Source of the DNA: an uncultured Lachnospiraceae bacterium
GTDB lineage: Bacteria > Bacillota > Clostridia > Lachnospirales > Lachnospiraceae
Direction of reading: 5' to 3'
Assembly (NCBI GenBank): GCA_902799015.1
Contig: CADBZI010000039.1
Location: 1 to 38,130 of the forward strand
DNA: 38,130 nucleotides
Below are positions 9,148 through 23,376 of this stretch, in pieces (position 1 is the stretch's first letter; each line of letters begins with the position of its first letter). Position numbers and translations under genes: made by a program. The notes under the pieces were generated by a model. The model was not told the origin of the DNA and did not search any database. It worked only from the letters and a program-made list of their open reading frames with translations.

Positions 9148-9195
9148 AAAAATATCTTCCACAGCCGGAAGATGTATCGAAAGACTGTGGAAGAT
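9148..9195 (-). terminator. Terminator at the end of the nif-like/hyp/hydF operon
   Basis: ATCTTCCACAG (9154-9164) pairs perfectly with CTGTGGAAGAT (9185-9195), and five T residues follow on the minus strand (9148-9152). A second small perfect hairpin, CCTGTAAG-N6-CTTACAGG (9204-9225), overlaps the stop codon of the last gene. Together they close the 12-gene operon. Confidence 0.8.
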
Positions 9196-9218
9196 CGTAA
9201 TTTCCTGTAAGCCAGCCC

Positions 9219-10982
9219 TTACAGGTTTAATATCTTTTTCATCTCCAGCGGGGCATCCACCAGATAATCCGCGCCATTCTCGATCAGTTCCTCACGGGTC
9301 CCGTAGCCGTAGGTCACCCCGATGGAGGCGCAGCCGGCTTCTTTTGCGCCGATGATGTCGTATCTGGAATCCCCTGCCATGATCACGTCACATGCCTTCA
9401 GGCCAAGGGCATCCAGCGCTCTTTTGATCAGAACGCTCTTCTGGTTGGAGGGGTCATAGGGATCCGGGCCGATGATCGCATCGAAGGCTCTGGCCAGGTC
9501 AAAATGCTCCAGGATCTGCCGGGCCATCTCCTGCGGCTTTGAGGTTACCACGGCGCAGCGGATTCCGGATTCCTTCAGATCCGAGAGCAGCTGCGGTATT
9601 TGGTCATAGACCTGAAGGTTATAGCATTCTCCGGCGTGATAGCACTCCCTGTAGGTCTCAACCGCCTTCCATGCTTCTTCCTCCTCCATTCCGCAGTAGG
9701 TTTCATACGAATAAAGCAGGGACGGGCCGACGAATCTGCGCAGGGTCTTTTCCTCCAGCGGGGGATGCCCTAACTTCTCCAGAGAATACCGAACGGAATT
9801 CATGATTCCGGGCCCGGAGTCGTTGATGGTTCCGTCCAGATCAAACAAGACTGCCCTGTATCTTCTGCCTGCGCATTCTTTTGCGTAACCGGTGATTCTT
9901 CGGATGACATCTGCGCCGGCCGGGAAGGGCGCCTTCGCGCATTTGGAAGGATTTGCCGCAACTGCTTTTTCTGTCAGCTTCAGCACCGGATCCAGCTGAT
10001 CTTCCGGAATCCTCAGATCACCGCAGCAGGCCAGATAGGTATTGTGCAGATCCTCTACGGAGGAAAAACCGGCCAAAGGCAGCAGGAAGGAAACCGTCTC
10101 CGGATCCGCCTCCCTGAGATATCCGGCCAGAAAATAGCAGACAGCCTTCCCATGCGCGATCTTAAGATGATACGTCATCGCATAGCTTAAAGCATGGGGA
10201 ATGCTGGTTCCGGTATGCGCAATTGCCATGCCTCCGAGCATTGCAGCCCGCATCAGAAGATCATAGGATTCCTCATCCGGCTCCTTTTCTCCCCGCAGGA
10301 TCGGGAGGCATTTCCCCCATTCTCTGAGTCCGTCGGCGGCAATGAGACGGGAGATGGGACCGGCATCCGCATTCAGATAGCTCTCACACAGATGGGACAA
10401 TGCATCGAACGCAGTGTTGCACAGCATCTGACGGCTTGCGCTGCGCAGATACTTTCCATCGATCAGAGACAGAGCAGGAAAGATCTTATGCGGAATGGAG
10501 CCCTTTGCCTGTTTGATCTCATCGGTCAGAACCGACACGGCAGTTACCTCTGAACCGGTGCCGCAGGTCGTCGGAATGCAGACGACGGGGACGGTGGAAC
10601 TGTCTGCCTTTGCCGTGTAGAGATAGTCCCGCCCCTCTTTCGCATGAAAGAGCATCAGCGCAATTGCTTTTGCCGCGTCCATGGGAGACCCGCCGCCGGC
10701 GCCGATCACAAAGTCGCAGCCTTCCTCCAGCCCAAAGTCCCTGGCCTTCATTACGGTTGCTGCAGACGGATTTTCCTCAACACTGTCATAAAGAGCGTGA
10801 CGAATGCCGCATTCCTCCAGTGCCGCGCAGATATCATCATAGACGCCGCAGCTTTTCGCGGAATGCCTGCCCGTAACAATCAGTGCTTTTTCTCCGAGCT
10901 TTTTCAGATCACCGGCATGTGCCTTGACGACATCCCTGCCGCAATATACTCTGGCCGGCATATAAAAACGGTCTTCTCTCAT
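9219..10982 (-). CDS. Fusion of iron-containing alcohol dehydrogenase and HAD phosphatase
   Basis: A single 587-residue frame joins two enzymes. Residues 1-370 are a group III iron-type alcohol dehydrogenase: GAGGGSPMDAAKAIA, IPTTCGTGSEVT, and metal ligands D193, H197, H263 and H277. Residues 376-587 are a HAD hydrolase of the phosphoglycolate phosphatase type: motif I FDLDGTINDSG with D381 and D383, motif II T480 in VVTSKP, K520, and motif IV AGDSRYDIIGAKEAG. All catalytic residues appear present in both halves. AAAGGAG precedes the ATG, which overlaps the hydF stop by 4 bases, so it is the last gene of the operon. A dehydrogenase that acts on an aldehyde or ketone, with a linked phosphatase, could make or detoxify a small metabolite for the system; this is inference and the substrate is unknown. 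Confidence 0.88.
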   Translation of the reverse strand: MREDRFYMPARVYCGRDVVKAHAGDLKKLGEKALIVTGRHSAKSCGVYDDICAALEECGIRHALYDSVEENPSAATVMKARDFGLEEGCDFVIGAGGGSPMDAAKAIALMLFHAKEGRDYLYTAKADSSTVPVVCIPTTCGTGSEVTAVSVLTDEIKQAKGSIPHKIFPALSLIDGKYLRSASRQMLCNTAFDALSHLCESYLNADAGPISRLIAADGLREWGKCLPILRGEKEPDEESYDLLMRAAMLGGMAIAHTGTSIPHALSYAMTYHLKIAHGKAVCYFLAGYLREADPETVSFLLPLAGFSSVEDLHNTYLACCGDLRIPEDQLDPVLKLTEKAVAANPSKCAKAPFPAGADVIRRITGYAKECAGRRYRAVLFDLDGTINDSGPGIMNSVRYSLEKLGHPPLEEKTLRRFVGPSLLYSYETYCGMEEEEAWKAVETYRECYHAGECYNLQVYDQIPQLLSDLKESGIRCAVVTSKPQEMARQILEHFDLARAFDAIIGPDPYDPSNQKSVLIKRALDALGLKACDVIMAGDSRYDIIGAKEAGCASIGVTYGYGTREELIENGADYLVDAPLEMKKILNL

Positions 10983-12223
10983 CTCTTACTCCTTTCCTGT
11001 GCTTCCGGAATCGGCCTGAGCGCGCGCTCCAGAATGCCGTGGACCTGGGCGATTACCATTCCGTAATTTGTGATCGGAACGCCCAGGGCATGCGCCTGCT
11101 CATTGCGTGCACTGACCTCTTTCTCATTCAGCATACAGGAACCGCAGTGAATGACAAGACGGTACTGTTCCAGATCCGCGGGAAAGGAAAGGCCCGACGA
11201 GGTTTCAAATACCGGCTCCTGTTTCGTATAGGAACGAATCCATGCCGGAAGCTTCACGGTACCGATGTCTCCGCACTGTCTGTGATGCGTACATCCCTCA
11301 GCAATCAGGATTCTGTCTCCGTCTTTGATCTGATTCAAAGCAGAGATTCCCGCAAGCTGCATCTGTAATACGCCCTTGTATCTCGCCATCAGGATGGAAA
11401 AAGAGGTCATGGGAATCTCATCCGGAACGACTTCTGATACAAATGAAAAAGCCTGGCTGTCCGTAATCACCAGAGCAGGCTGCTTCGGCAAAGAGGCCAT
11501 CACCGCCTTCAATTCCGTGTCTCTTACGCATAAAACCTGAATTCCGTGATCGAGAAGATCCCTGAGTACCTGCTGCTGCGGGAGGATCAGCCTTCCCTTT
11601 GGCGCAGAGCCGTCAAGCGGGATCACAAGAATGACCAGATCCAGAGGGCGGACCAGGTCCGCTGCCAGAGGCTTCTCCTTCTGCTTCTCAAGCGCCGCTG
11701 CACTCTGGCCGATCATTTCCCGAAGAGCAGTCAGGTTTTCCCCTGTCAGGGCACTGACGCAGATCTGACGCACAACGTTCTGCCCGAAATCGGACTGAGA
11801 CATCTTATGTTTTACTGCCGGATCATCGATCAGATCTGTTTTGTTCCAGGCAAGAATGCAGTCCGTCTTCTGCTCCTGAAACAGACCCAGCAGCTCCCGG
11901 TCAGATGCTCCGATGCCTTTTGCCGCATCCACCACAAGCACCGCAAGATCTGTTCTTTTCAGGATCTCCCGCGTCCTGTTGACACGCAGCTCGCCCAATC
12001 CTCCCTCATCGTCGAAACCCGGGGTATCCGTGATCACGACAGGACCTGCGGGAAGAATCTCCATGGACTTGGACACCGGATCGGTTGTCGTGCCCGGTAC
12101 ATCGGAGACAACCGACATCTGCTGGGAGGTCAGGGCATTGACCAGGCTTGACTTTCCCGCGTTTCTGCTTCCGAAGAATCCGATATGAAGCCGCACACTG
12201 CGCGGCGCATCATTCATGCTCAT
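10979..12223 (-). CDS. hydF: HydF, [FeFe]-hydrogenase H-cluster maturation GTPase
   Basis: A 414-residue protein of normal HydF length. The GTPase domain has the P-loop GFFGSRNAGKSSLVNAL, switch DTPGFDDEGG and NKTD. A dimerisation domain follows. The C-terminal cluster domain has the CxH motif EGCTHHRQCGDIG and the HCxxC motif in VIHCGSCM, the ligands of the [4Fe-4S] cluster that carries the 2Fe precursor. The ATG at 12223 has AAAGGAGG 7 bases upstream and overlaps the stop of the nifK-like gene by 4 bases. HydF normally works with the radical-SAM enzymes HydE and HydG; neither is in this window. Here it sits among nitrogenase-like and hypCDEF genes, so it may serve as scaffold for a different cofactor, or partners lie elsewhere. 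Confidence 0.93.
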   Translation of the reverse strand: MSMNDAPRSVRLHIGFFGSRNAGKSSLVNALTSQQMSVVSDVPGTTTDPVSKSMEILPAGPVVITDTPGFDDEGGLGELRVNRTREILKRTDLAVLVVDAAKGIGASDRELLGLFQEQKTDCILAWNKTDLIDDPAVKHKMSQSDFGQNVVRQICVSALTGENLTALREMIGQSAAALEKQKEKPLAADLVRPLDLVILVIPLDGSAPKGRLILPQQQVLRDLLDHGIQVLCVRDTELKAVMASLPKQPALVITDSQAFSFVSEVVPDEIPMTSFSILMARYKGVLQMQLAGISALNQIKDGDRILIAEGCTHHRQCGDIGTVKLPAWIRSYTKQEPVFETSSGLSFPADLEQYRLVIHCGSCMLNEKEVSARNEQAHALGVPITNYGMVIAQVHGILERALRPIPEAQERSKR

Positions 12224-13473
12224 AGAGAACCTCCTTTTTCCAGCAGTGAACCGATCTGATTCAGATATAACCGTCCGGACAGCGCAAAATGCGGCAGCGC
12301 ATGAAATCTGCACCCGGACCGGCAGGCTTCCTTCAGCATCGGATCCGCTGTCACTTCCTCATACTCTGCAAGTACTTCCCGAATCTGCCTTTCCCCCTCC
12401 GGCGTGAAACCTTGCTCCGGAAGCAATCCCTGCCTGGTTTCTGTCAGAGCGATCAGATCGCAGGGCTTTCCATCCGTAAGAACTATGTCTGCCGCGGCAC
12501 TGCCCATGGTGACCGGCTCTCCCGCGATGCATCTGACGGGGGTATCCGGGTTCTTCCGTTTTTCCCGTGACGGAAGGCTGTTCAGAATCTCCAGATAGGG
12601 GACGCTGCTTTTCCTGGTGAGCGCGCTTTTTTTCACTGCTTCACACAGAATCCTCCTGAAAGAGCCCGTCGGAACGCCGACCGTATAAGGGATACCGAAG
12701 GTTTCCTCCATCCACCGTGCTGTTTCCATTCCAGTGGAGGACACTACCAGGTTTACATCCGCGCCTGCGGATCGTTTCAGGCTCTGAAGACCATCTCCGA
12801 TCGCCCAGTTGCTGACAACCTCAAAGCCTTCTTCTTCCAGGATCCTTCTCATCGCCATGGCATCTTCCCTGACCGGATAATCCAGAGGAGTCATCCCGAG
12901 AATATTCAGGCGGATCCGGCGTCCGTCCGGGTTCGTGTCAGCTGCAATGATCCGGCCCGTGCCGGGAAGGCCCCGTAACGTTCCGGAATCGCCGGCTGCC
13001 CCTGCATCTTCTGATAACAGCATCTTCGCAAGATGGAGAAACGCCTGTCCGGCCCCTTTTGTATAATCGTGCATCGCGTTGGTCTCGACATGAAAGGAGG
13101 CAATACCAGTCAGAGCCGTTACCTTCTTGCAGATTGCTTCAAAATCAGTCCCGATCAGCCATGGAACCGGCGAATTCGCGATCGCGATGAACGCAGGATG
13201 AAACGTGTTGGCTGCGGAAACAATATCATCAATCAGCCGCTGGTCATTTCCGGTAATCGCGTCAAGCTGGGTCAGGCCGGAAAGAAAGATCAGGCTTTCC
13301 ATGCTGACCCACCGGATCTCGTCATGTGTGTTATAGGTGGAATTGCACCCGGACGGGTCATGCATCACAACCATGCCGCCCAGCTCATACAGCGCGGAGC
13401 ATACCCCCGACACATCTCCCGTATAGACCGGCAGATTCCACCACGTTTGTGATTTCCAGCTCTCTCCTGCCAT
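12220..13473 (-). CDS. Nitrogenase component 1-like protein, NifK/NifN-type, second copy
   Basis: A 417-residue member of the nitrogenase component 1 superfamily. It is a paralogue of the product at 19880-21082, shown by shared tracts such as VCSALYELGGMVVMHDPSGC and SPVPWLIGTDF. C43 aligns by eye with NifK C95, a P-cluster ligand. The other two NifK cysteines are missing: no C precedes the GVCSAL tract, and the third position reads SPVPWLIGTD. GGAGG lies 8 bases before the ATG. It begins 3 bases after its likely partner at 13477 and overlaps hydF by 4. It should form a heterotetramer with that partner and accept electrons from the single NifH-like protein, or act as a NifEN-like scaffold. 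Substrate is unknown. Confidence 0.82.
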   Translation of the reverse strand: MAGESWKSQTWWNLPVYTGDVSGVCSALYELGGMVVMHDPSGCNSTYNTHDEIRWVSMESLIFLSGLTQLDAITGNDQRLIDDIVSAANTFHPAFIAIANSPVPWLIGTDFEAICKKVTALTGIASFHVETNAMHDYTKGAGQAFLHLAKMLLSEDAGAAGDSGTLRGLPGTGRIIAADTNPDGRRIRLNILGMTPLDYPVREDAMAMRRILEEEGFEVVSNWAIGDGLQSLKRSAGADVNLVVSSTGMETARWMEETFGIPYTVGVPTGSFRRILCEAVKKSALTRKSSVPYLEILNSLPSREKRKNPDTPVRCIAGEPVTMGSAAADIVLTDGKPCDLIALTETRQGLLPEQGFTPEGERQIREVLAEYEEVTADPMLKEACRSGCRFHALPHFALSGRLYLNQIGSLLEKGGSL

Positions 13474-13476
13474 CTT

Positions 13477-14883
13477 TTATTCCTCCGGCTGTGTTGAGAC
13501 TACCGTGCTGCACAGACTCGGCCACCCGATCCCCTTTTTCGGAATCATCCGCTTGTAATCAAGTTCCTCCTCCTTCGCCTGCCGCAGAAGGGCGCAAAGA
13601 TCCCGGATCCCCTGATAGCCCCACAGACCGCCGCCTTCGATGATATTCACGAAATGACCACTCTGGCAGAACCATGCCGCCTTCTGGCCGAGCGCGATCA
13701 CCCTGCGTCCGGAGGTGACGACGTCCTTCCCTCTTCCATACAGAACCATGCCGGGCTGGATGGTCGGAACCAGCCTCAGGTCCGGGCAATGCTCCTTCAG
13801 CCAGTTGAAGGCTTCCTGTTCTTCTTCCAATATCGCATCCAGGAACACACATTCCACAAAGATCCCATGCTGAATCAGAAGCTTCGCGATCCCAAGCGGC
13901 CTGGAATGGGCAGTGTAATCGATGGCAACCGTCCAGTCATGCAGATCTTCGGCAAGCTCCTGAAGAGCCGCAATGCATGTCCTTTCCTGTTCCCGCATCC
14001 AATCCTCCGAAGCAAGATCTCTTCCGCATACATCGGACAAGGCTTTGATCTGAGCGCGGATCTCATCAAAGGAAACTGCCGCTGACAGATACACGAATCC
14101 TGCTGAGGTCCGCTCAGAAAGATCCTTCACCGCCTGACAGGCATTCGGATAGGTGCAGACATTGACCGCGGCATCGCCCAGAGCGAGAAACTGTTCGAAA
14201 TCATCGCAGTCATAGATCTGCTTTACTTCAAAACGGTTTGAGGACAGAAGGGTGATCAGCTCGCAGTCCCGGTCAAACGGAACATCACTTCCGAGAAGAT
14301 TGACCCTCGCAGGGTTCTTCCGGACAGGCTGTATGATTCCGAACGCTGCCATCCTCAGCTTCATGTCCGGCGTCGGTCCTTCCTTCTGCCGGATGCAATC
14401 CATGTATCCCTTGACAAACCGGATCTGAGGAAACCGGCGGCCCAGCTCGCGGAAGATGTAATCCTCATCGCTGCCTGTGAAAATGTGCAGGCAGACCAGG
14501 AAGACAAATACGACAGGCGGCTCTTTTGGAAGATTCCGGATGACATCCGATACGCCTTCGATCGTAATGGTTTCCAGATTGTCAACCTGAACGTCCCGCT
14601 CGCGGAGCATGACGCTGGAGAACCGGTCCCGGCATCCCATCTCCGCTGCAGTCATCACAACGCCGCGCAGGCAATTGTCCGAGCATACATAGATGCTGTG
14701 CGACTGAGGGACGGCCATTCCGATATGTACAATATTCCAGGTTCCGTGGGCAGGCGCATTGTACTCCAGAGTACGTGGAAACGGCGCGGGGAAGGAGGCA
14801 TCCGCGATACGGATCCCCTCTTCCAGATGTGCAATCGCTCCATCCGACAATGTCTCATGGAAACCGGAAACTCTTTTAAGCAT
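13477..14883 (-). CDS. Nitrogenase component 1-like protein, NifD/NifE-type, second copy
   Basis: A 468-residue nitrogenase component 1-type protein. It aligns by eye with the product at 21129-22418: LEYNAPAHG with LAYNSPGAEG, C71 in SDNCLRG with C66, and C131 in LVCLHIFTGSDED with C126. These two cysteines match NifD C88 and C154; the equivalent of NifD C62 is absent. Another cysteine shared with the paralogue is C249 in PNACQA, near the region of the FeMo-co ligand C275 but not in the same motif. The ATG at 14883 is favoured because GGAGAG lies 7 bases upstream; longer forms add only a basic tail overlapping the previous gene. It overlaps the TM1266-family gene by 8 bases. Confidence 0.82.
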   Translation of the reverse strand: MLKRVSGFHETLSDGAIAHLEEGIRIADASFPAPFPRTLEYNAPAHGTWNIVHIGMAVPQSHSIYVCSDNCLRGVVMTAAEMGCRDRFSSVMLRERDVQVDNLETITIEGVSDVIRNLPKEPPVVFVFLVCLHIFTGSDEDYIFRELGRRFPQIRFVKGYMDCIRQKEGPTPDMKLRMAAFGIIQPVRKNPARVNLLGSDVPFDRDCELITLLSSNRFEVKQIYDCDDFEQFLALGDAAVNVCTYPNACQAVKDLSERTSAGFVYLSAAVSFDEIRAQIKALSDVCGRDLASEDWMREQERTCIAALQELAEDLHDWTVAIDYTAHSRPLGIAKLLIQHGIFVECVFLDAILEEEQEAFNWLKEHCPDLRLVPTIQPGMVLYGRGKDVVTSGRRVIALGQKAAWFCQSGHFVNIIEGGGLWGYQGIRDLCALLRQAKEEELDYKRMIPKKGIGWPSLCSTVVSTQPEE

Positions 14884-15157
14884 GCGCGTTCTCTCCGTCT
14901 TCTTTTTCCTGCGTGATGACATCCGAATAAACGGTTCTGCTGGCAACCCCTTCCAGTCTGCCGATCTTTCCGCTCAGTGCGGAGATGAAGTCCTGCGGAG
15001 CATCCACGGCAAGGCTGATGATGCTGATGTTCCGCTCTCTGTACGGAATCCCCATTCTCCCGATCACGTACCTGGATGCCTCATGCAGATATGCATTCAG
15101 TTTCGTGATCTGGCTGGTATCCGAGACAATAATTGAGATGATTGCAACTCGCTTCAT
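14876..15157 (-). CDS. TM1266-family putative regulator of the iron-only hydrogenase system
   Basis: A 93-residue protein matching the TM1266 family: MKRVAIISIIVSD, LNAYLHEASRYVIGRMGIPY, and ISIISLAVDAPQDFISALSG. The family has a ferredoxin-like ACT/NikR-type fold and is named for its frequent linkage to hydE, hydF and hydG. Its biochemical role is not established. AAAGGAAA lies upstream of the ATG. The gene lies 23 bases after hypE and overlaps the following nifD-like gene. Together with hydF it ties this operon to H-cluster biology. Confidence 0.88.
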   Translation of the reverse strand: MKRVAIISIIVSDTSQITKLNAYLHEASRYVIGRMGIPYRERNISIISLAVDAPQDFISALSGKIGRLEGVASRTVYSDVITQEKEDGENAHA

Positions 15158-15180
15158 GGCGATTTCCTTTCCTGTGCAGG

Positions 15181-16189
15181 TCAGCAGATCCGGGGAAGCA
15201 GTTCATTTCCGGGCTGAGGCAGATACGTCTGTGTACCGATTGCGGTCTGCATCACAACACGTCCCGCTTCGCTGTCCGTGACGCGGCCGATTACGGCAGC
15301 TTTCTCAGAGTGCTCGACTGCATGCAGAATTGCAAGTACCTGCTCTGTCTTTTCCTGCGGTACGATCATAACCATGGTTCCCTCACAGGCCAGGTACAGA
15401 GGATCCAGTCCCAGCATCCCTGTCACTCCGCTCACCGAAGGAAGGACCGGGATCGCTTCCTGCTCCAGAAGAATTCCCTTCCGGCTCTCTGCGGCGATCT
15501 CATACAGAACCGTTCCGACGCCGCCCCGGGTGGCATCCCGGATCACATGTACATCGGGAACCTCCCGGAGAACTGCCTCTACATTCTTCCACAGCGGCGC
15601 GCAGTCACTGCTTACCTCAGCCTCAATGCCAAACTCATCCCGCTCCAGCAGAATGCAGCAGCCGTGCCGTCCGATGTCTCCCGTTACGATCACGCTGTCC
15701 CCGCTTTGGGCCAGCTTGCCGGAGGTGTTGACATTCTCCGCGATCTGCCCGATCCCGGTTGTCGTGATAAAGACGCCGTCCACCTGCCCCTTTCCGGCAA
15801 CCTTGGTGTCTCCCGCAACAATTACAACGCCTGCCTCCTTCCTGCTCCATGGAGCAGACAATCTCCTCCAGGCGGTCCATCGGGAACCCTTCCTCAATGA
15901 CAAACGCGCAGGTGAGATACAGAGGCTTCGCGCCCATGCACGCAAGGTCATTTACCGTACCGCAGATGGAAAGCTTTCCGATGTTTCCGCCCCGGAAAAA
16001 CCGCGGCGAAACGATGAATCCGTCTGTCGTCATGGCAATTCTGCCGCCCGGAGCGGGAAGGATCGCCGCGTCATCCGGGGTAAAATACGGATTCGAAAAA
16101 TGCGCCTTGAATACCTGCTCGATCAATTCTGCTGTCTGCTTTCCGCCTGCGCCGTGGGCAAGCGTTACGGTCTTATTCTTCAGGTCCAT
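15181..16189 (-). pseudogene. hypE: HypE, carbamoyl-dehydratase for Fe-cyanide ligand synthesis, frameshifted
   Basis: Two frames together make a full-length HypE. From the ATG at 16189 (AAGGAGA upstream) the first frame encodes LAHGAGGKQTAELIEQVF, FFRGGNIGKLSICGTVNDLA and ends native at CSMEQE. The second frame resumes at KEAGVVIVAGDTKVA near 15845 and continues through RDATRGGVGTVLYEIA to the canonical C-terminal PRIC, whose cysteine receives the carbamoyl group. The break lies at about 15836-15848. Compared with family spacing between SM and AGV (about six residues), five bases seem to be missing. A perfect 16-base palindrome (15842-15857) sits at the break. It may be a real mutation, in which case cyanide ligand synthesis fails, or a sequencing or assembly error. 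Intact neighbours favour the latter. Confidence 0.85.
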
Positions 16190-16228
16190 GCCTGTCTCCT
16201 TTTCTTTTTTCAGATATCATCCTGTTAA

Positions 16229-17296
16229 TCAGCCATACAGATAGAATGCCGAACATGCGCCCTCTGAGGATACCATGCAGGCGCCGACCGGATGCTCCGG
16301 GGTACAGCCTTTTCCAAACAAAGGACACGCTTTCGGCGTGATCCTGCCCTGCAGCACCTCACCGCACCGGCAGCCTCTTGCCTCTCTTCCGTTCATTTCG
16401 GGAAGCTGGTATTTTTTGCGTGCGTCATAAGCGGCATATTCCTCTCTCAGCTCCATTCCCGAGTCTGCAAGAGTGCCGATCCCACGCCATCTGGAGTCAC
16501 AAGGCTGCATATAGCTGCGGACCAGTTCCCTGGCCTGCACACTGCCGTCCTCCGTGACAACCCGCGGATAGCAGTTGACCAGAAATGGCTTGCCCTCCTG
16601 CGTCTTCTTCACGATCACGGCAAGTGCCGTCAGCAGTTCGGACGCGGTGAATCCCGCTACAACTCCGCTCATGCCAAGCGCGAGCATCTCACGGCATTCC
16701 GACAGGCCCTGGATGGCGCATACATGACCGGGATACAGGTAGGCATCGGTGGTTTCCATCATCGCCCGGTACGCGGCGGGCATGGTCTTATTCGCGCAAA
16801 GGAGGCTGAAGTTGTGCAGATCCTCCCGGATTGCATGCTCCAGCGCGATGCACGAGGAGGGTGTTGTCGTCTCAAATCCGACAGACAGGAATACAGCCTC
16901 TTCCTCCGGATGCGTTCTTGCCCATACCTCCGCGTCCAGCGGAGAGTAGACAACCTGCACCTTTGCCCCCTTCCCCCGTGCCGTCTGCAAACTCATCTTT
17001 GATCCGGGAACCCGTACCAGGTCTCCGAAGGTCAGGATCGTGCATCCCTTTTCCAGCGCCAGAAAGATGGCCTCGTCAATGTAGGAAACCGGTGTCACGC
17101 AGACCGGACATCCCGGTCCGGAGATCAATGTGATGTCCTCCGACAGAAGGCTCCTGATTCCAAGCCGGAAGATCTCATGCGTATGCGTACCGCAGACCTC
17201 CATAATCCGGATCTTCGGTCCGTGATAGGTGGACAGGATCTTTCGCGCCTTTTCCAGGGAGCCGGACAGCGTATTCTTCTTTTCCGTGTCAGTCAT
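16229..17296 (-). CDS. hypD: HypD, Fe(CN)2CO assembly scaffold
   Basis: A 355-residue iron-sulfur protein that, with HypC, carries the Fe(CN)2CO unit during [NiFe] hydrogenase maturation. Conserved motifs are MEVCGTHTHEIFR, SGPGCPVCVTP, VGFETTTPS, and the C-terminal cluster ligands in CRCGEVLQG and CPLFGKGCTPEHPVGACMVS. Two motifs deviate from the usual forms as I know them: PGHVCAIQG where PxHVS is typical, and AGFTASELL where a GFEPLD-like tract is typical. That suggests a divergent branch. The ATG overlaps hypC by 4 bases. Confidence 0.94.
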   Translation of the reverse strand: MTDTEKKNTLSGSLEKARKILSTYHGPKIRIMEVCGTHTHEIFRLGIRSLLSEDITLISGPGCPVCVTPVSYIDEAIFLALEKGCTILTFGDLVRVPGSKMSLQTARGKGAKVQVVYSPLDAEVWARTHPEEEAVFLSVGFETTTPSSCIALEHAIREDLHNFSLLCANKTMPAAYRAMMETTDAYLYPGHVCAIQGLSECREMLALGMSGVVAGFTASELLTALAVIVKKTQEGKPFLVNCYPRVVTEDGSVQARELVRSYMQPCDSRWRGIGTLADSGMELREEYAAYDARKKYQLPEMNGREARGCRCGEVLQGRITPKACPLFGKGCTPEHPVGACMVSSEGACSAFYLYG

Positions 17297-17505
17297 ACCA
17301 GAAGTTCCTCCATCAGGCTGTCCGCCTCCTCTTCCTCATTTTTTGTGATCTTTGCAATGGCAGCGCCCGCGTGCACCATCACATAATCGCCGGGAGCCAG
17401 ATCCGAGATCAGCTGCGCGGAGACCTCTCTGCGTGCTCCCGACGCATCCACAATAGCGCTTTTGTCACTTACCTTGACAACCCTTGCTGATAATCCTACA
17501 CACAT
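17293..17505 (-). CDS. hypC: HypC, Fe(CN)2CO chaperone
   Basis: A 70-residue HypC/HybG/HupF-family protein. The essential C2 follows the initiator methionine (MCVGLSARVV). The typical tract LAPGDYVMVHAGAAIAKI is present, and the C-terminus is acidic. HypC partners with HypD to hold iron while cyanide and CO are added, and normally delivers it to the hydrogenase large subunit. No large subunit is encoded in the window. AAAGGAG lies 9 bases before the ATG. Length is slightly short for the family but complete. Confidence 0.94.
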   Translation of the reverse strand: MCVGLSARVVKVSDKSAIVDASGARREVSAQLISDLAPGDYVMVHAGAAIAKITKNEEEEADSLMEELLV

Positions 17506-17528
17506 GACTGTTTTCTCCTTTCAAAAGA

Positions 17529-19892
17529 TCATCCCTCCCTCCGGAGGATTTCCTGTGCGGCCAGTGCCTGTCCGATGCTGATTCCGCCGTCATTGGGAGG
17601 AATCAGATGATGCGTATAAACCTCCATGCCGCTTTCTTCGAGTTTTTCTGATGTCAGTTCCAGAAGCAGCGTGTTCTGGTAGACGCCTCCGGTCAGAACC
17701 GCCCGCTTTTGGCCTGTTTTTTTCGATTCAGCGAGGATGGCTCCTGCAATCATGGAAGCAAGTGCTTCATGAAACAGATACGCAAGCGCTCCGGACTCCT
17801 CGCCCGCAAGATACTGTTCCACGATCTGTCTGACGAGCAGATCTGTAGGAAGCACCTGAAATGCTGCGCTTTCTGCCGGTTTCGCTTCCCCGGCTTTGTC
17901 CGTCCACACCCTGACGGAGGAAACCGGAATTCCCTCTTTGGATGCCTTTTTCTTCCGGTAATCCTGCGCGGCAAACATCAAAGACGTAGAAGCTTCTCCT
18001 TCAAAGGTGGACTCTTTGCAGATGCCGAGGATCGCACTGACTGCGTCAAACAGCCTTCCCGCACTGGTTGATGTTACGGTATTCATCCTTCTGTCCGCCA
18101 TCAGTGAGATCGTCTTCAGGGAAGAAGCACTGCACAGGGAGAGCTTTTCCACGATCCTGGCAGCCTCAGAGGCATCCGGATACAGGGAATGAAGCATGGA
18201 AGATGCGATGCGCCAGCCCTGTCTTGACGCGGTATCTCCTCCCACCATCAAAAACGGCCGGATGCTCCCGAACCGCTCAAAACCGGCACGGTCACAGCGC
18301 ATCAGTTCGCCGCCCCAGATCGTTCCATCGATTCCCCATCCGGTTCCGTCGAAGGAAGCGCCAAGCACCTCACCGTCCAGATCATTCTCCGCCATACAGG
18401 AAACGATATGGGCAAAATGATGCTGTACGGGAATGAGCCGTATGCCTCTTTTTTTTGCCAGCTTCTTCGCAAACTCTGAGGAATGATAGGCGGGATGAAG
18501 ATCACAGGCAATTACCTCCGCCTTTCTTTCCAGCAGCGTTTCCATACGGGCAGCGGATTCCTCCAGCGCACGGACGGACCTCGGATCCGCGAGATCTCCT
18601 ACATAGGCAGAAGGATAAAACATGGAGCCGATCCCGATGCAGAACGTATTCTTCAGCTCACCGCCTGCGGCAAGCACGACCTTGTCATATTCCCCGCCGG
18701 TAAGAACCGGAAGCGGCGCGTATCCTCTGGACCTTCGGATCATGTAGGGCTTGCCTTTGTAAAAGTCCATAACGGAATCATCACAGCGGATCCGGATCAT
18801 TCTGTCATGAGACAGGATCGCGTCCACGAATCCTCCCAGCTCCCGGACGGCCTCTTCGTCATCCCGGCAGATCGGGGCGCCGGATACATTTCCGCTGGTC
18901 ATAACCAGACTGTCCGGCATCTGTACTTCGTCGGGATAATCAAACAGCAGCATCTGCACAGGCGCGTAGGGGAGCATGACGCCGATCTTCGGATTCCCCG
19001 GCGCAACCGCTTCGCACAGATTGGCAGTTTCCCTTTTTTCAAGAAGCAGGATCGGCTTCTGATATCCGGTCAGGATCCTTCTTTGCTCTTCTGTGATCCG
19101 GCATGCCCGAAGCACGGTCTCTTCGTCGCGCATCATGACCGCAAATGGCTTCACCGGTCTTCTCTTCCTGGCGCGCAGCCGCATGACCGCCTCCTGCGAT
19201 GTCGCGTCGCAGCAAAGATGGTATCCGCCGATTCCCTTTACCGCGAGGATCTTTCCATCCGCGAGCATCCGTCTCGCCTTCCGGATCGCACCCGCACCGC
19301 GCTCATTGCCTCCCACCAGATAGACCTGCGGGCCGCAGTCATTGCAGCATACCGGCTGCGCGTCATATCTTCTGGAGGCAGGGTCCTCATACTCGGCGGC
19401 ACACGCCGGACACATGGGGAATTCCTTCATGCTGGTGCGCGCGCGGTCATAGGGAAGCTCGTCCAGGATCGTCAGCCTTGGACCGCACTGTGTGCAATTG
19501 ATAAAAGGATGAAGGTACCTGCGATTCTTCGGATCAAACAGTTCCTTTCTGCATTCCGGGCAGGTGGCAATATCCGGAGAGATAAAGATCTCACCTTTTT
19601 CCTTTTCACTTTCGATGATCCGGAAGGAATCCTCCATAGGGACGGCGTCGGTATCTCTGACGTCGATTTTGAGAATCACGGACCGCTCCGGCGGATCGAG
19701 GTTCAGAATCTCAAGGAAACGATCCAGCGCCTTCTGATCTCCGTGTGCAATTACCTCCACATAGGAGCCTCGATTACAGACCGATCCCAGGATTCCAAGC
19801 TCCATGGCAGCTCTGCTGACAAACGGACGGAATCCCACTCCCTGCACAATGCCGTACAGTCTGATTCTCTTTGTCAGCTTCAGATCCTCCAT
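17529..19892 (-). CDS. hypF: HypF, carbamoyltransferase for cyanide ligand synthesis
   Basis: A 787-residue multidomain protein. It has an N-terminal acylphosphatase domain (GIVQGVGFRPFV), then two zinc-finger modules (CPECRKELFDP, CTQCG, CPACAAEYEDP, CCNDCG). A YrdC-like domain (AVKGIGGYHLCCDATS, KRRPVKPFAVMM) and a C-terminal Kae1-like domain (HHFAHIVSCMAEN, GASFDGTGWGIDG, LTGGVYQN) follow. HypF uses carbamoyl phosphate and ATP to carbamoylate the HypE cysteine. The ATG at 19892 is preferred; it overlaps the preceding nifK-like gene by 13 bases. The overlap fuses the nitrogenase-like and hyp parts into one transcript. Confidence 0.95.
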   Translation of the reverse strand: MEDLKLTKRIRLYGIVQGVGFRPFVSRAAMELGILGSVCNRGSYVEVIAHGDQKALDRFLEILNLDPPERSVILKIDVRDTDAVPMEDSFRIIESEKEKGEIFISPDIATCPECRKELFDPKNRRYLHPFINCTQCGPRLTILDELPYDRARTSMKEFPMCPACAAEYEDPASRRYDAQPVCCNDCGPQVYLVGGNERGAGAIRKARRMLADGKILAVKGIGGYHLCCDATSQEAVMRLRARKRRPVKPFAVMMRDEETVLRACRITEEQRRILTGYQKPILLLEKRETANLCEAVAPGNPKIGVMLPYAPVQMLLFDYPDEVQMPDSLVMTSGNVSGAPICRDDEEAVRELGGFVDAILSHDRMIRIRCDDSVMDFYKGKPYMIRRSRGYAPLPVLTGGEYDKVVLAAGGELKNTFCIGIGSMFYPSAYVGDLADPRSVRALEESAARMETLLERKAEVIACDLHPAYHSSEFAKKLAKKRGIRLIPVQHHFAHIVSCMAENDLDGEVLGASFDGTGWGIDGTIWGGELMRCDRAGFERFGSIRPFLMVGGDTASRQGWRIASSMLHSLYPDASEAARIVEKLSLCSASSLKTISLMADRRMNTVTSTSAGRLFDAVSAILGICKESTFEGEASTSLMFAAQDYRKKKASKEGIPVSSVRVWTDKAGEAKPAESAAFQVLPTDLLVRQIVEQYLAGEESGALAYLFHEALASMIAGAILAESKKTGQKRAVLTGGVYQNTLLLELTSEKLEESGMEVYTHHLIPPNDGGISIGQALAAQEILRREG

Positions 19893-21082
19893 ACCTCTAC
19901 CTTCTCTGCGTTCGGGGCACATGCAGCCCTCTCTTCCTTCCTTCTTTTCCGGTCGATCGCGGCCTGCCCGGATACCGCAAAATGAAATGCATCAATCCAG
20001 CTTCCATGATACGAACCGGCCATCGGCTTCAGCACCGGATCGGCGATGATCATATCCCAGTCCTTTCTTGCGGCAAGCGCAATGAAGTCATCTTCTTCTC
20101 TGAGCCTCACATCTCCCTCCATGGTCAGCTCCGGTTTCTGGTCAAACCAGGTGGCTGCGAGAATCTCTCCCGTCACGCCCTTTTCTCTCATCGCAGTGCG
20201 GATGGCATTCGCCATTACCTGCTGGTGCACCACAAGAATCTTCGCGTCCGGAGCAAAGATGGCCGCTTCCTTCCACGGATCCTCCTCGAGCACAATCATC
20301 GGATCTGCCGGAAAACAGATCTCATAGGGAATCCGGTATTCTTCCTGCAGATACTTCGCCGCAGCGATGCCTGCCGGGGATACCACATAATTGCGCTCCG
20401 CAAGAGCGCTTCTCTTCAAAGCTTCCAGTCCGCCATCCATTCCATACAGCAAAACCTCATCATATCCCGCCTGCAGCAGGGAGGTCCTGATTGCTTTTGT
20501 CCAGGACGGATCAAACAGGTCCAAAGGATTCAGGCCAAGCACGCCGCAGATTCTGTCCCGGGATGGTTTGTCCGTGTAGCCGCGCGCAAACCGTTTCACC
20601 AGAGCCAGGAGCGCTTCTTCAATTCCTCTGTCATACAGATGCATGCCATCCGCAGCAACGGCAATGCAGGGCAGATGTGTGATTCGTTCGGCCATTGCGG
20701 CGTCTGCGGCAAGATCCGTTCCGATCACCGCGGGAACAGGCGTGCCGATCAGTGCAATAAACTTCACATCGATCTGCCGGGATGCTTCCTCCAGTTTCCG
20801 GATGAGAAGATCATCCCTGCCGAGAATCGCATCCATATCTCTGAGGCCTGCGCTGAAGACTGCTGCGACGTGAGCGGGTTCATCTGAAGACTGCTTCAGA
20901 TCCTCCTCTCCGAATGACCGAAGATAATCAGGCTGCCATCTTGGCTCATCGAATCCGCAGATATTGCCGGCGCAGCCGCCGGCGTCCACGATCACAACCA
21001 TACCGCCAAGCGCATAGCAAACCGAGACAGCGCCGGACTGATCCGGAGCAAATGGAGTCAAATATTTACGAAGTCCCTTCAT
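19880..21082 (-). CDS. Nitrogenase component 1-like protein, NifK/NifN-type, first copy
   Basis: A 400-residue nitrogenase component 1-type protein. The N-terminal tract GAVSVCYALGGMVVIVDAGGC resembles NifK around its C95; here that cysteine is C37. The positions of NifK C70 and C153 are occupied by other residues (FAPDQSGAV and GTPVPAVIGTDL), so only one canonical ligand remains. C42 is an extra nearby cysteine not found in the paralogue at 12220-13473. AGGA lies 7 bases before the ATG. The gene is 46 bases after its partner at 21129 and overlaps hypF by 13. It probably forms a complex with that partner, reduced by the NifH-like protein. Confidence 0.83.
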   Translation of the reverse strand: MKGLRKYLTPFAPDQSGAVSVCYALGGMVVIVDAGGCAGNICGFDEPRWQPDYLRSFGEEDLKQSSDEPAHVAAVFSAGLRDMDAILGRDDLLIRKLEEASRQIDVKFIALIGTPVPAVIGTDLAADAAMAERITHLPCIAVAADGMHLYDRGIEEALLALVKRFARGYTDKPSRDRICGVLGLNPLDLFDPSWTKAIRTSLLQAGYDEVLLYGMDGGLEALKRSALAERNYVVSPAGIAAAKYLQEEYRIPYEICFPADPMIVLEEDPWKEAAIFAPDAKILVVHQQVMANAIRTAMREKGVTGEILAATWFDQKPELTMEGDVRLREEDDFIALAARKDWDMIIADPVLKPMAGSYHGSWIDAFHFAVSGQAAIDRKRRKEERAACAPNAEKVEVWRI

Positions 21083-21128
21083 ATCACAATCCTGTCTTTA
21101 TGCTTTGCCGATGGTTCCGGTCGGGATT

Positions 21129-22418
21129 TCAGTCTGCCGCCGTGTGAGATTGCAAGGCACGATCCATTTCCCTCACAAGGGATCGCACCGCTGCGAATCC
21201 ATATGGCTGGACATCACGATTCCAGGTTACATGTGCCGCCTTCGGATGATAGTACGCGGCATCCTTGCCGAGTGTCAGGCAAACCTCCCCCTCCTTTTCC
21301 TCATACGAGATCATGGAGGGATCCTGGTTGCAGTAAACTTTTGTATCCGGACTGATATCGGAAAGTGCCTTCAGGTACCAGAGATTCTCCTCATTCACGG
21401 TCGCGAAGATCTCTTTCACGCGCAGCCCTCCGGAAGAGAGCGTCAGGGCAAGCTCAAAGGGATCCGCGTTCAGACATTCCCCGATGGAAACACCGATGCC
21501 TGCCCGGTCCCGGCAGAAAGCATGGAACACATCAAACGTTTCCTGATACTCTGCCTGATCCTCTATGTCGATCCCTGTTGCCTGGGAAAACGCCGCATAT
21601 TGTCTGTGAATCCGCTCCGGATCATAGAACCTGCGAAGCTCCACATAAGGAAGATCCAGACGCCCCGCCAGGTCATCCGCCGCTGCCCTGCACTCGGGGT
21701 TCAGCACAATATTGAAATTGGCTTCCGCCATCTGCAGAAATTCCTCAAAGTCCGCACACGCACCGATCTGCCGGATTGTTTCCACACCGGCTTTCTTCAG
21801 ATATCCGGACAATTCGAAGTCTTCGTCCACCGGTGAGAAGAAGCCGAGATAATTCACGGCCCGGCTGTTTTTCTTCCGTTTCTCCAGAAGGGAATACAGA
21901 GACTGCCGGACATGCACCATCGGCGGACGGATCCCTTCTCTTGTCAGCGCATACATGTAGCAGGGACGCACCCGCACCTGGCTGATTTCCTCCGCCTTGC
22001 GGCATACGCGGTCCCAATCCGTTCCGAGCAATGCATCCGCGCAGGTCGCGCAGATCATCACCAGCTCAGGTTTCTTGTCCAGAAAACTGACAATCTCGGA
22101 AACAGCCTGCGGGATGCTCTTGAGATGCCGCCCCGTCACCAGATCCGTCTCATCCATCTGCAGATAGAAAAAGCGGTTCTTGTACTGCGGCATGCTGCTG
22201 ATCTGGGATGTATTTCGTCCGCAGCAGCCCGGAGAGACGATCAGCATGACAGACTCCGGGATCGACAATCCTGCCCGCTTTACTCCGAAGCCCTCCGCTC
22301 CGGGAGAATTATAGGCAAGGGTTGCCGGTGAACTGAATACAAGATGCTTCGTCACCTTATAAAGATCCGGTATTGTGTCCGCTCCGGCCAGCTCCTTGGC
22401 GGTAAAAAAAGAAGGCAT
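21129..22418 (-). CDS. Nitrogenase component 1-like protein, NifD/NifE-type, first copy
   Basis: A 429-residue nitrogenase component 1-type protein encoded 18 bases after the NifH-like gene. C66 in SPGCCGRN and C126 in CATCADALLGTD align by eye with NifD C88 and C154. The NifD C62 position is L in LAYNSPGAEG. The region of the FeMo-co ligand C275 reads NIVLNPECRAAADDL, with a cysteine (C243) three positions away. No obvious counterpart of NifD H442 was found. With one cysteine from the partner subunit this gives three candidate ligands for an interface [4Fe-4S] cluster, as in dark-operative protochlorophyllide reductase. AGGAG lies 7 bases before the ATG. Catalytic substrate cannot be inferred. 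Confidence 0.83.
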   Translation of the reverse strand: MPSFFTAKELAGADTIPDLYKVTKHLVFSSPATLAYNSPGAEGFGVKRAGLSIPESVMLIVSPGCCGRNTSQISSMPQYKNRFFYLQMDETDLVTGRHLKSIPQAVSEIVSFLDKKPELVMICATCADALLGTDWDRVCRKAEEISQVRVRPCYMYALTREGIRPPMVHVRQSLYSLLEKRKKNSRAVNYLGFFSPVDEDFELSGYLKKAGVETIRQIGACADFEEFLQMAEANFNIVLNPECRAAADDLAGRLDLPYVELRRFYDPERIHRQYAAFSQATGIDIEDQAEYQETFDVFHAFCRDRAGIGVSIGECLNADPFELALTLSSGGLRVKEIFATVNEENLWYLKALSDISPDTKVYCNQDPSMISYEEKEGEVCLTLGKDAAYYHPKAAHVTWNRDVQPYGFAAVRSLVREMDRALQSHTAAD

Positions 22419-22436
22419 GTGGTATCTCCTGTTTAT

Positions 22437-23189
22437 TCATTCCGTTTCCAGCAGTCTCTTTGCAAGATCAAGAAAGGTTTTCGACACTTCGAGCGAAGGA
22501 TCCCCTTCCACGACGGTCTTTCCTTCCTCCTCGAACCGGATAATATCATTGCTCCTGGGAATCTCGCCGATGATCGCAAGATTTCGTTCCGCGGCAAAGG
22601 CCTGCACCTTCTGTGTCTCATTTTCCACATTCCGGTGATTCAGAATCAACCCCAGAACCCGCGCATAGCTGCGGTCCTCAAAGTTCCTGACCGCACGGTT
22701 AATATTGTCCGCGGCATACAGGGCCATCTTCTCCCCGCTCGTCACAATCAGGACCTTCTGCGCATAGCCTTCCCGGATCGGCGCTGCGAATCCTCCGCAG
22801 ACAACATCTCCCAGAACGTCGTACAGAACAACGTCAGGCTTCCATTGCGCAAAGAGTTTCAATTCCTCCAGCAGCTGGAAGGTTGCGATGATACCGCGCC
22901 CGGCGCAGCCAAGTCCGGGGGTCGGTCCTCCGGTCTCAATGCACAGAACGCCCTTGTATCCTTCCGCGCTGATCTGTCGGAAATCGGTGGGATAGTCGTC
23001 CTGATCCCTGAGATAATCCATGACAGGCTCTACGGCCTTTCCTCCGAGAAGATTAATCGTAGAATCCGCCTTCGGATCGCATCCGATCTGAATGACTCTT
23101 TTTCCAAGCGTGGCAAATGCAGCCGCGAGGTTCGCAGTCATGGTCGATTTGCCGATTCCGCCTTTTCCGTAGATTGCAAGCTTTAACAT
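22437..23189 (-). CDS. NifH/BchL-like iron protein (ATP-dependent reductase component)
   Basis: A 250-residue homologue of the nitrogenase iron protein. It has the P-loop GKGGIGKST (residues 8-16), the [10 protein letters not shown] switch, and both cysteine ligands of the intersubunit [4Fe-4S] cluster in GLGCAGRG and [11 protein letters not shown]. The arginine that is ADP-ribosylated in true NifH is kept in CAGRG. It is shorter than canonical NifH (about 275-295). The ATG at 23189 has AGGAG 10 bases upstream. An in-frame ATG at 23276 would translate through the leader terminator and is rejected. As first gene of the operon, and the only NifH-like gene, it probably donates electrons to both nitrogenase-like pairs. 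Confidence 0.9.
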
Positions 23190-23219
23190 TGTTATTACAC
23201 TCCTGATGCGGCCAAGGTC

Positions 23220-23248
23220 AAAAAAGTGCGCGCTCTGATGAGCGCGCA
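23220..23248 (-). terminator. Intrinsic terminator inside the nifH-like leader
   Basis: TGCGCGCTC and GAGCGCGCA form a 9-bp GC-rich stem (23227-23235 with 23240-23248), loop of 4, followed by C and six T residues on the minus strand (23220-23225). It lies between promoter and first gene, so it can only act as a regulated attenuator of the operon. Confidence 0.8.
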
Positions 23249-23330
23249 GACATAATCCGTATCGTAGCTGATACATCTTTCTGCCGCTATTCTGGCTCGG
23301 GATACAGCCTTGCCGTCAGAGCGATCCTTT
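23220..23330 (-). ncRNA. Candidate cis-regulatory leader (riboswitch or attenuator) of the nif-like/hyp/hydF operon
   Basis: Upstream of the terminator the RNA can fold into a compact domain. P1 is CGCT (23320-23323) with AGCG (23285-23288). P2 is GGCT (23306-23309) with AGCC (23294-23297). GGAT (23324-23327) can pair with ATCC in the P2 loop (23300-23303) as a pseudoknot. Alternatively AGCGGCAGA (23280-23288) can pair with TCTGCGCGCT (23241-23250), nine pairs with one bulged G, which would destroy the terminator. P1 and this antiterminator compete for the same bases. The hairpin GTATC-N6-GATAC (23259-23274) lies inside. I recognise no known riboswitch class. Protein-mediated or peptide attenuation is possible. 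Confidence 0.5.
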
Positions 23331-23347
23331 CTTATTGCGTTTTAAGC

Positions 23348-23376
23348 ATTTTACATGATCTGATCAGAATGCGCAA
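23348..23376 (-). promoter_or_regulatory. Predicted promoter of the 12-gene operon, with palindrome in the spacer
   Basis: TTGCGC (23371-23376) and TAAAAT (23348-23353) are 17 bases apart on the minus strand. The spacer contains the perfect palindrome TCTGATCAGA (23359-23368), a possible operator. The -35 is weak, which suits an activated promoter. Leader length to the ATG is about 150 bases. Confidence 0.5.

Follow-up and report, generated by a model that had tools for sequence, protein, structure and literature searches.

Why should a single operon join genes of nitrogenase, [NiFe]-hydrogenase and [FeFe]-hydrogenase systems? The question is raised by a 38,130-nucleotide stretch of DNA from an uncultured Lachnospiraceae bacterium (contig CADBZI010000039.1 of assembly GCA_902799015.1), analysed here at its full length and called the window. 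It is contig C39 among the 168 contigs of the 2.64 Mb, ~85% complete window genome (G000). Twelve genes, all on its minus strand, occupy positions 9219–23276 and, by family-profile searches (PF and TIGR models) against the open reading frames (ORFs) of the window, encode a NifH-like protein, two pairs of nitrogenase component-1-like proteins (NifA1/NifB1 and NifA2/NifB2), HypF, HypC, HypD, HypE, a TM1266-family protein, HydF, and a fusion of an Fe-dependent alcohol dehydrogenase (Fe-ADH) with a HAD phosphatase. An earlier note, made from the letters alone, had given these positions and family names, and both were borne out by the ORF coordinates and the profiles. It had proposed a new cofactor pathway or reductase or, as an alternative, a different route to the H-cluster of [FeFe]-hydrogenases. 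The distribution of the cluster strongly favours the alternative: judging from sequence and genome comparisons, we think it likely that the cluster replaces the tyrosine lyase HydG and feeds ordinary HydE and HydF in [FeFe]-hydrogenase maturation.

A search of 116 relatives with one NifD-like protein showed closely related clusters in 14 further genomes of the window's genus and in one genome, G059, from another genus of the family (G014 is counted as a carrier by contig L051, which holds part of the cluster). A second search, with a 12-sequence profile against data comprising one genome per species, gave 243 loci, of which the best 80 were fetched. In all 80, as far as the end of the contig or flank, the genes follow the order NifH, NifA1, NifB1, HypF, HypC, HypD, HypE, then in some loci a TM1266 gene and a second NifH, and finally NifA2 and NifB2. 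The earlier note had allowed that this order might be unique to the assembly; it is not, and the lack of any violation among the 80 fetched loci indicates that the cluster is not a chance grouping. The 51 loci that extend to the last core gene all hold the nine core genes, together with a second NifH in 15 and a TM1266 gene in 45. Carriers belong to the Lachnospiraceae, Ruminococcaceae/Saccharofermentans and Atopobiaceae/Coriobacteriaceae, and include the isolates Blautia luti, B. massiliensis, Blautia sp. Marseille-P3087, Coprococcus comes, Faecalicatena contorta, Eubacterium uniforme, Lachnospiraceae C10 and strain YAD3003. Genes for HydE, HydF and TM1266 are often inside or beside the cluster, HydE or HydF being found within 30 of the 80 fetched stretches. 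HydE lies outside the operon in the window, as the earlier note had it, and in G008, but belongs to the operon in eight of the nine same-genus loci that reach that far.

In the known pathway, [Fe(Cys)(CO)2(CN)]− is made by HydG and converted by HydE into a diiron unit, which HydF completes and delivers (PMC11736057). Tyrosine is regarded as the origin of all five CO and CN ligands that the H-cluster carries (PMC3105041). The carriers searched lack the first of these enzymes. Searches for HydG, HydE, HydF, [FeFe]-hydrogenase (PF02906) and [NiFe]-hydrogenase large subunit (PF00374) covered 50 of the 80 locus genomes, with longer contigs and isolates preferred (L056–L064, mostly of the same genus, and 21 others were left out). 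In these 50 carriers plus G059, HydG over cut-off was found in 0 of 51; among 29 cluster-free members of the family, it was found in 16. The first set of relatives gave HydG over cut-off in 12 of 41 genomes, none of them among the 15 carriers and all among the 26 non-carriers. When 392 genomes were sampled evenly from the order, the cluster marker turned up in 18, HydG in 170 and both in none (0/18 marker genomes versus 170/374 others; Fisher p 3e-5 with relatedness ignored); the marker here is a cluster-type NifA1 at E ≤1e-140, with Hyp neighbours inspected only in the window and in genomes already examined. The carrier sets partly overlap: G000 occurs twice, and coordinates suggest that G441 and G500 correspond to G146 and G125 (L110 and L080), respectively. 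The best matches to the HydG model in B. luti, B. massiliensis and C. comes (~190 bits) end at model position 383–401 of 470, and those of the latter two adjoin a ThiG-like gene, recognised by eye. A HydG hidden behind these weak matches was considered and rejected, as the proteins are ThiH-like and lack the C-terminal part of HydG; this check covers the three species, similar matches in other carriers not having been inspected singly.

The remainder of the pathway is retained. Among the 50 carriers, 49 have HydE and 48 have HydF over cut-off, and 49 have a PF02906 match, which is weak in G145 and G153. All eight named isolates have the hydrogenase, HydE and HydF, and profile searches found neither HydG nor PF00374 in any of them. 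The 20 best-scoring hydrogenase genes fetched, all from carriers, contain MPCxAKK and EIMGCPGGC without exception and TSCSPGW in 17; in the other three (L136–L138), the first TSC match of the scan fell elsewhere, with the second and third motifs intact. The hydrogenase of the window genome is split over two contig ends and has group-B-like motifs, from which we take it to belong to group B. HydF of the window (10979–12313; TIGR03918, 528 bits against a cut-off of 326) matches three Pfam domains (GTPase, dimer and tetramer), and its C-x-H and HC-x2-C motifs, which provide Fe-S ligands, are invariant in 29 of 29 sequences (for all residue conservation, identical sequences were dropped and only sufficiently complete copies were kept per family). 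It is because the cluster occurs with HydE, HydF and an [FeFe]-hydrogenase, with few exceptions, and never with HydG in the genomes searched, that a replacement of HydG is proposed.

The physiology of one carrier species has been described. From sugars, B. luti DSM14534 forms acetate, succinate, lactate, formate and H2 by fermentation, and its crude extracts show an H2:methyl viologen activity of ~20–640 mU/mg, compared to ~23,000 for B. schinkii; its genome contains hydABC and a group B hydM, and [FeFe]-hydrogenases are the only hydrogenases mentioned in the part of the paper available to us (PMC12773636). The paper contains no term that starts with “matur”. In the genome of B. luti MSK.16.34, the cluster is complete, HydE and HydF lie on other contigs, and a hydrogenase locus matches by eye; a profile search found no HydG in this genome.

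Are the two states fixed in separate lineages? In a HydE tree of 59 of 60 sequences (46 from carriers, 11 from HydG genomes and 2 from genomes with neither; L204 was dropped for its low score), carriers and HydG genomes interleave, with nine changes of carrier label, at least five of which are forced by well-supported branches. This pattern could reflect either repeated mutual replacement of HydG and the cluster or transfer of HydE between such genomes; under either explanation, the interleaving implies that similar HydE proteins serve both states. In the window's genus, G010 has HydG, HydE and HydF, lacks the cluster and HypD, and has a HydE nested among those of carriers, and in genus g103 the cluster marker is found in G292, G387 and G441 and HydG in G483. 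These observations bear on the possibility that the cluster makes another Fe-CN-CO or nitrogenase-like cofactor or is a reductase, with HydF recruited as a carrier and the exclusion of HydG being a lineage effect. Two complete NifD/NifK-like pairs do resemble an enzyme and its scaffold more than a source of small ligands, and HydG-less non-carriers with canonical hydrogenases (see below) indicate that HydG can be absent without the cluster. A lineage effect, however, is difficult to reconcile with a tree on which the state changes at least five times and with swaps in two genera, and another product would leave no ligand source for the hydrogenases of carriers, 49 of 50 of which have HydE and 49 of 50 a hydrogenase, or for the H2 of B. 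luti (PMC12773636). With HydG excluded and HydE, HydF and [FeFe]-hydrogenase present almost throughout, a new pathway or reductase apart from hydrogenase, the first proposal of the earlier note, is disfavoured, and we consider it unlikely.

Several observations weigh against a replacement of HydG by the cluster. The counts of HydE and HydF derive from a non-independent sample, since the carriers were found through the cluster. The window genome itself, at ~85% completeness, has HydF and no HydE over cut-off, and its hypE is frameshifted. Among other carriers, G130 has no match for HydE or HydF, G147, G014 and G017 have none for HydF, and G132 has none for the hydrogenase. The activity of B. 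luti was determined for strain DSM14534, whereas the genome is that of MSK.16.34, and this activity is low compared with the value for B. schinkii. The absence of HydG is also not always paired with the cluster, because HydG-less non-carriers keep PF02906: it is present in nine of the ten examined, none of which has HydE or HydF over cut-off, and canonical hydrogenase motifs were identified in two of them, G042 (L159) and G051 (L160). The hydrogenases of such genomes may have further maturation routes, or some may be unmatured. In the window's genus, G001 and G005 (the latter estimated as 100% complete) have HydE, TM1266 and HydF and lack HydG, the cluster and HypD, and G011 (75% complete) lacks both HydG and the cluster and has only a fragment of HydE.

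Genomes such as G001 and G005, with HydE and HydF only, would also be accommodated if HydG were dispensable, HydE and HydF using stray CO and cyanide while the cluster has another role. HydE and HydF alone gave ~1% of full activation (PMC9431212), and the low hydrogenase activity of B. luti (PMC12773636) would be in keeping with such a supply. This would, however, leave unexplained the presence of the cluster in 12 of the 14 same-genus genomes that have HydE and HydF without HydG, and in 61 of 63 such genomes when G059 and 48 genomes found through the cluster are included, and we regard a dispensable HydG as very improbable.

The loci of these non-carriers differ in arrangement. HydE-TM1266-HydF in G005 (L156) and TM1266-HydE-HydF in G001 (L157) are each followed by two transporter-like genes, recognised by eye. 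Hydrogenase loci in genomes without HydG or the cluster comprise L159, L160 and L161–L167, from genomes that are 94–100% complete (67% for G024). Among the ten HydG-less non-carriers, G043 has a weak HydE match, and G021, G022 and G044 have HypD, each accompanied by a PF00374 match.

What, then, do the Hyp proteins contribute? HypF, a carbamoyl transferase (17529–19922; TIGR00143, 737 bits), HypC (17293–17505; PF01455, 79 bits) and HypD (16229–17296; TIGR00075, 369 bits) score over curated cut-offs in the window. HypE (15181–16189) is recognised only as two frames (TIGR02124, 149 and 257 bits, the 149-bit frame being below the whole-protein cut-off). The earlier note was correct that all four genes are present and overlooked a frameshift near 15842 that divides hypE into two ORFs, 15635–16189 and 15181–15951, with the C-terminal PRIC end kept. 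As relatives have a single HypE ORF, the frameshift is either an assembly error or a recent lesion. The PRIC motif is known at the C-terminus of HypE (PMC12130793), and the C-terminal cysteine is present in 69 of 69 loci. In HypC, one cysteine (the second residue) and one histidine are invariant in 68 of 68 sequences, as are many cysteines and histidines of HypD in 70 of 70.

HypCDEF are established in [NiFe] maturation, so these genes might mature a [NiFe]-hydrogenase and merely adjoin an unrelated nitrogenase-like operon. A PF00374 match is in fact present in five of 66 carriers; it spans only the first 69–70 positions, in ORFs of 359–390 residues whose size suggests group-4-like proteins. 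In all five, however, another HypD lies on the contig of the match, 2–18 kb away (G003 C67, G004 C3, G006 C22, G123 C25 and G160 C64), and the other 61 carriers, including the window genome, have no PF00374 match. As each of the 51 core-spanning loci has its Hyp genes flanked by the two nif-like pairs, an accidental adjacency is already contradicted, and we reject [NiFe] maturation as the role of the cluster's Hyp genes, a reading that retains hardly any credibility. The earlier note had named complete, ordinary [NiFe] and [FeFe] systems in the same genome as a sign of chance grouping; what was found is HydG in no carrier and no [NiFe] match in 61 of 66. HypD is present in all 47 carriers tested (the copy in G017 is a contig-end fragment below cut-off) and in two of 20 HydG-bearing non-carriers (G025, and a fragment in G030).

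The nitrogenase-like proteins comprise one NifH-like Fe protein and two component-1-like pairs. NifH (22437–23189; PF00142, 294 bits) has an ORF that extends to 23276, and comparison with relatives suggests that it probably starts at 23189. Its closest solved relative is NifH of C. pasteurianum (1cp2, 241 bits). It contains the P-loop GKGGIGKS and four cysteines that are invariant in 80 of 80 loci; two of these we take to be the ligands of the intersubunit [4Fe-4S] cluster. NifA1 (21129–22418; 94.7 bits), NifB1 (19880–21082; 53.6 bits), NifA2 (13477–14946; 50.6 bits) and NifB2 (12220–13473; 91.6 bits) all exceed the PF00148 cut-off of 28.6 bits. The component-1 fold was seen in AlphaFold2 models of the two subunits modelled. 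That of NifA1 (mean predicted local distance difference test score, pLDDT, 84.5) matches chains of nitrogenase, NifEN and dark-operative protochlorophyllide oxidoreductase (DPOR) with query-normalised template-modelling (TM) scores of 0.6–0.7 at 12–18% identity, and that of NifA2 (pLDDT 75.4) best matches NifEN chains (TM 0.5–0.6). NifA1 and NifB1 are fused in a single ORF of 855–877 residues in three loci (L037 15160–17793, L039 13692–16259 and L043 3175–5796), which supports an A1-B1 heterodimer.

Among 57–88 distinct sequences per Nif-like family, NifA1 has C66 and C126 invariant in 88 of 88 and two further cysteines in 85 of 88, NifB1 has C37 and C42 in 78 of 78, NifA2 has two cysteines in 86 of 86, and NifB2 has C43 in 57 of 57. 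The invariant cysteines of the A subunits align with interface-cluster positions. As regards an interface cluster of the three-cysteine DPOR type, which residues of both subunits bind, the sequences show two invariant cysteines in the A subunits and at least one in the B subunits. Since both subunits contribute invariant cysteines, a putative [4Fe-4S] cluster at each A-B interface would fit. In NifA1, the only subunit aligned there, no cysteine corresponds to the cysteine ligand of the FeMo-cofactor in subunit D, the aligned position being the one that we take to be the FeMo-cofactor site. Given this and the operon partners, nitrogen fixation is held unlikely. Another uncharacterised trio of a NifH and NifDK-like proteins, ~30% identical to NifA1 and followed by three ATP-binding cassette (ABC) transporter-like ORFs, was encountered at L048, L049 and L050; one genome with such a trio, G096, also has HydG. 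These trios were rejected as members of the cluster, as their surroundings showed neither a Hyp cluster nor HydF.

How might these parts replace HydG? For a HydG-type synthon, the Fe(CN)2CO produced by HypCDEF carries one surplus cyanide and is short of one CO. Because HydE and HydF are retained, the cluster should supply HydE with a HydG-like synthon. Nitrogenase relatives reduce CO2 to CO and also reduce cyanide, so that two NifH-driven complexes could correct the ligand set. In the scheme that we envisage, HypF and HypE would generate cyanide from carbamoyl phosphate and, as in [NiFe] maturation, load it together with CO on an iron bound to HypC-HypD. Electrons would be driven by the NifH-like ATPase into the two [4Fe-4S]-bearing NifA/NifB heterodimers. 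These might convert Fe(CN)2CO into a synthon of the Fe(CO)2(CN) type, by generating CO (for instance from CO2) or by removing one cyanide reductively, and/or might hold the iron unit as a NifEN-like scaffold. Ordinary HydE would then build the diiron unit and HydF would deliver it, with no tyrosine lyase required. We give roughly even odds to such a combination of Hyp proteins and a reductase as the source of the H-cluster ligands. That the whole amounts to a second, tyrosine-independent H-cluster biosynthesis, in which HypEF would provide cyanide, HypCD would carry the iron, and a nitrogenase-like reduction driven by ATP would make CO or remove a cyanide, is for us an evenly balanced proposition. 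Among the literature matches listed, drawn from a literature largely without subscription journals and bioRxiv, no description of a HydG-free or Hyp plus nitrogenase-like route was found. Clostridium acetogens in which hydG was not identified have been discussed, with no nitrogenase-like proposal in the available part of that paper (PMC9431212).

The layout of the window operon is compact, with gaps of at most 46 bases according to the gene coordinates, in agreement with the earlier note. The terminator that it placed at 9148–9195 corresponds to a terminator-like hairpin on the minus strand (9173–9154). A promoter that it proposed at 23348–23376 remains unconfirmed, as our scan found no sigma-70-type site there and the region is not enriched in such sites (10) relative to shuffled sequences (mean 8.7). 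An Rfam scan of the window matched no family. By comparison with relatives, HydF probably starts near 12223 and NifA2 near 14880, both internal to the longest ORFs. The TM1266-family protein (14876–15157; TIGR03959, 108 bits), of a family assigned as putative regulators of the [FeFe]-hydrogenase system, is probably a regulator. A second terminator-like hairpin precedes NifH (23227–23248, minus strand). In 11 of 23 loci scanned (a raw scan count), a hairpin with a T-run begins 36–104 bases before the first NifH start: the window and L036, L037, L038, L040, L041, L043, L045, L073, L080 and L222. Outside the genus, their sequences are unlike one another; the hairpin could be a leader attenuator or the terminator of a preceding gene.

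The last gene of the operon, the Fe-ADH/HAD fusion (9219–10982; PF00465 and PF13419), accompanies the cluster only in close relatives (L036, L037, L038 and partly L047). It was rejected as a core gene for being lineage-specific and is probably peripheral to the cluster. The two parts form one ORF in the window and separate ORFs in G008 (L036 2715–4552), and the region adjoins L-arabinose isomerase in the window, G012 and G002.

If the cluster does replace HydG, then the cofactor machineries of the Hyp, Hyd and Nif systems are open to recombination, with those of [NiFe]-hydrogenase and nitrogenase jointly building the [FeFe] cofactor. HydG would be an unsafe marker of [FeFe]-hydrogenase capacity in gut genomes, and CO and cyanide ligands for hydrogenase production might become available from a new source in vivo. 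A HydG-free route could be tested in cultured gut commensals. A function might also be at hand for the NifH “Cluster IV” genes of human gut Clostridiales, which are abundant, transcribed, related to those of Ruminococcus, Coprococcus and Eubacterium, and of largely unknown function (PMC4995403). These may include NifH proteins of the cluster; that study deals with NifH amplicons and, in its available part, draws no link to Hyp or HydF.

The cluster shares features with three known systems and departs from each. With the HydE-HydF-HydG pathway, it has in common the ordinary HydE, HydF and hydrogenases of its carriers and the TM1266 regulator family, whereas HydG is absent from the carriers searched. 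It contains all four proteins of the HypCDEF branch of [NiFe] maturation, with key residues kept, including the C-terminal cysteine of HypE. In contrast to that system, 61 of 66 carriers have no [NiFe] match, a second HypD is present where an Ech-like match exists, and HypA and HypB are not among the cluster genes (no genome-wide search for these two was made). Like NifEN/NifDK, DPOR and methylthio-alkane reductase, it combines a standard-type NifH with the component-1 fold and invariant cysteines in both subunits. It differs from them in the low identity of its chains to solved ones (10–18%), in having two different pairs per operon, and in having hydrogenase maturases as partners.

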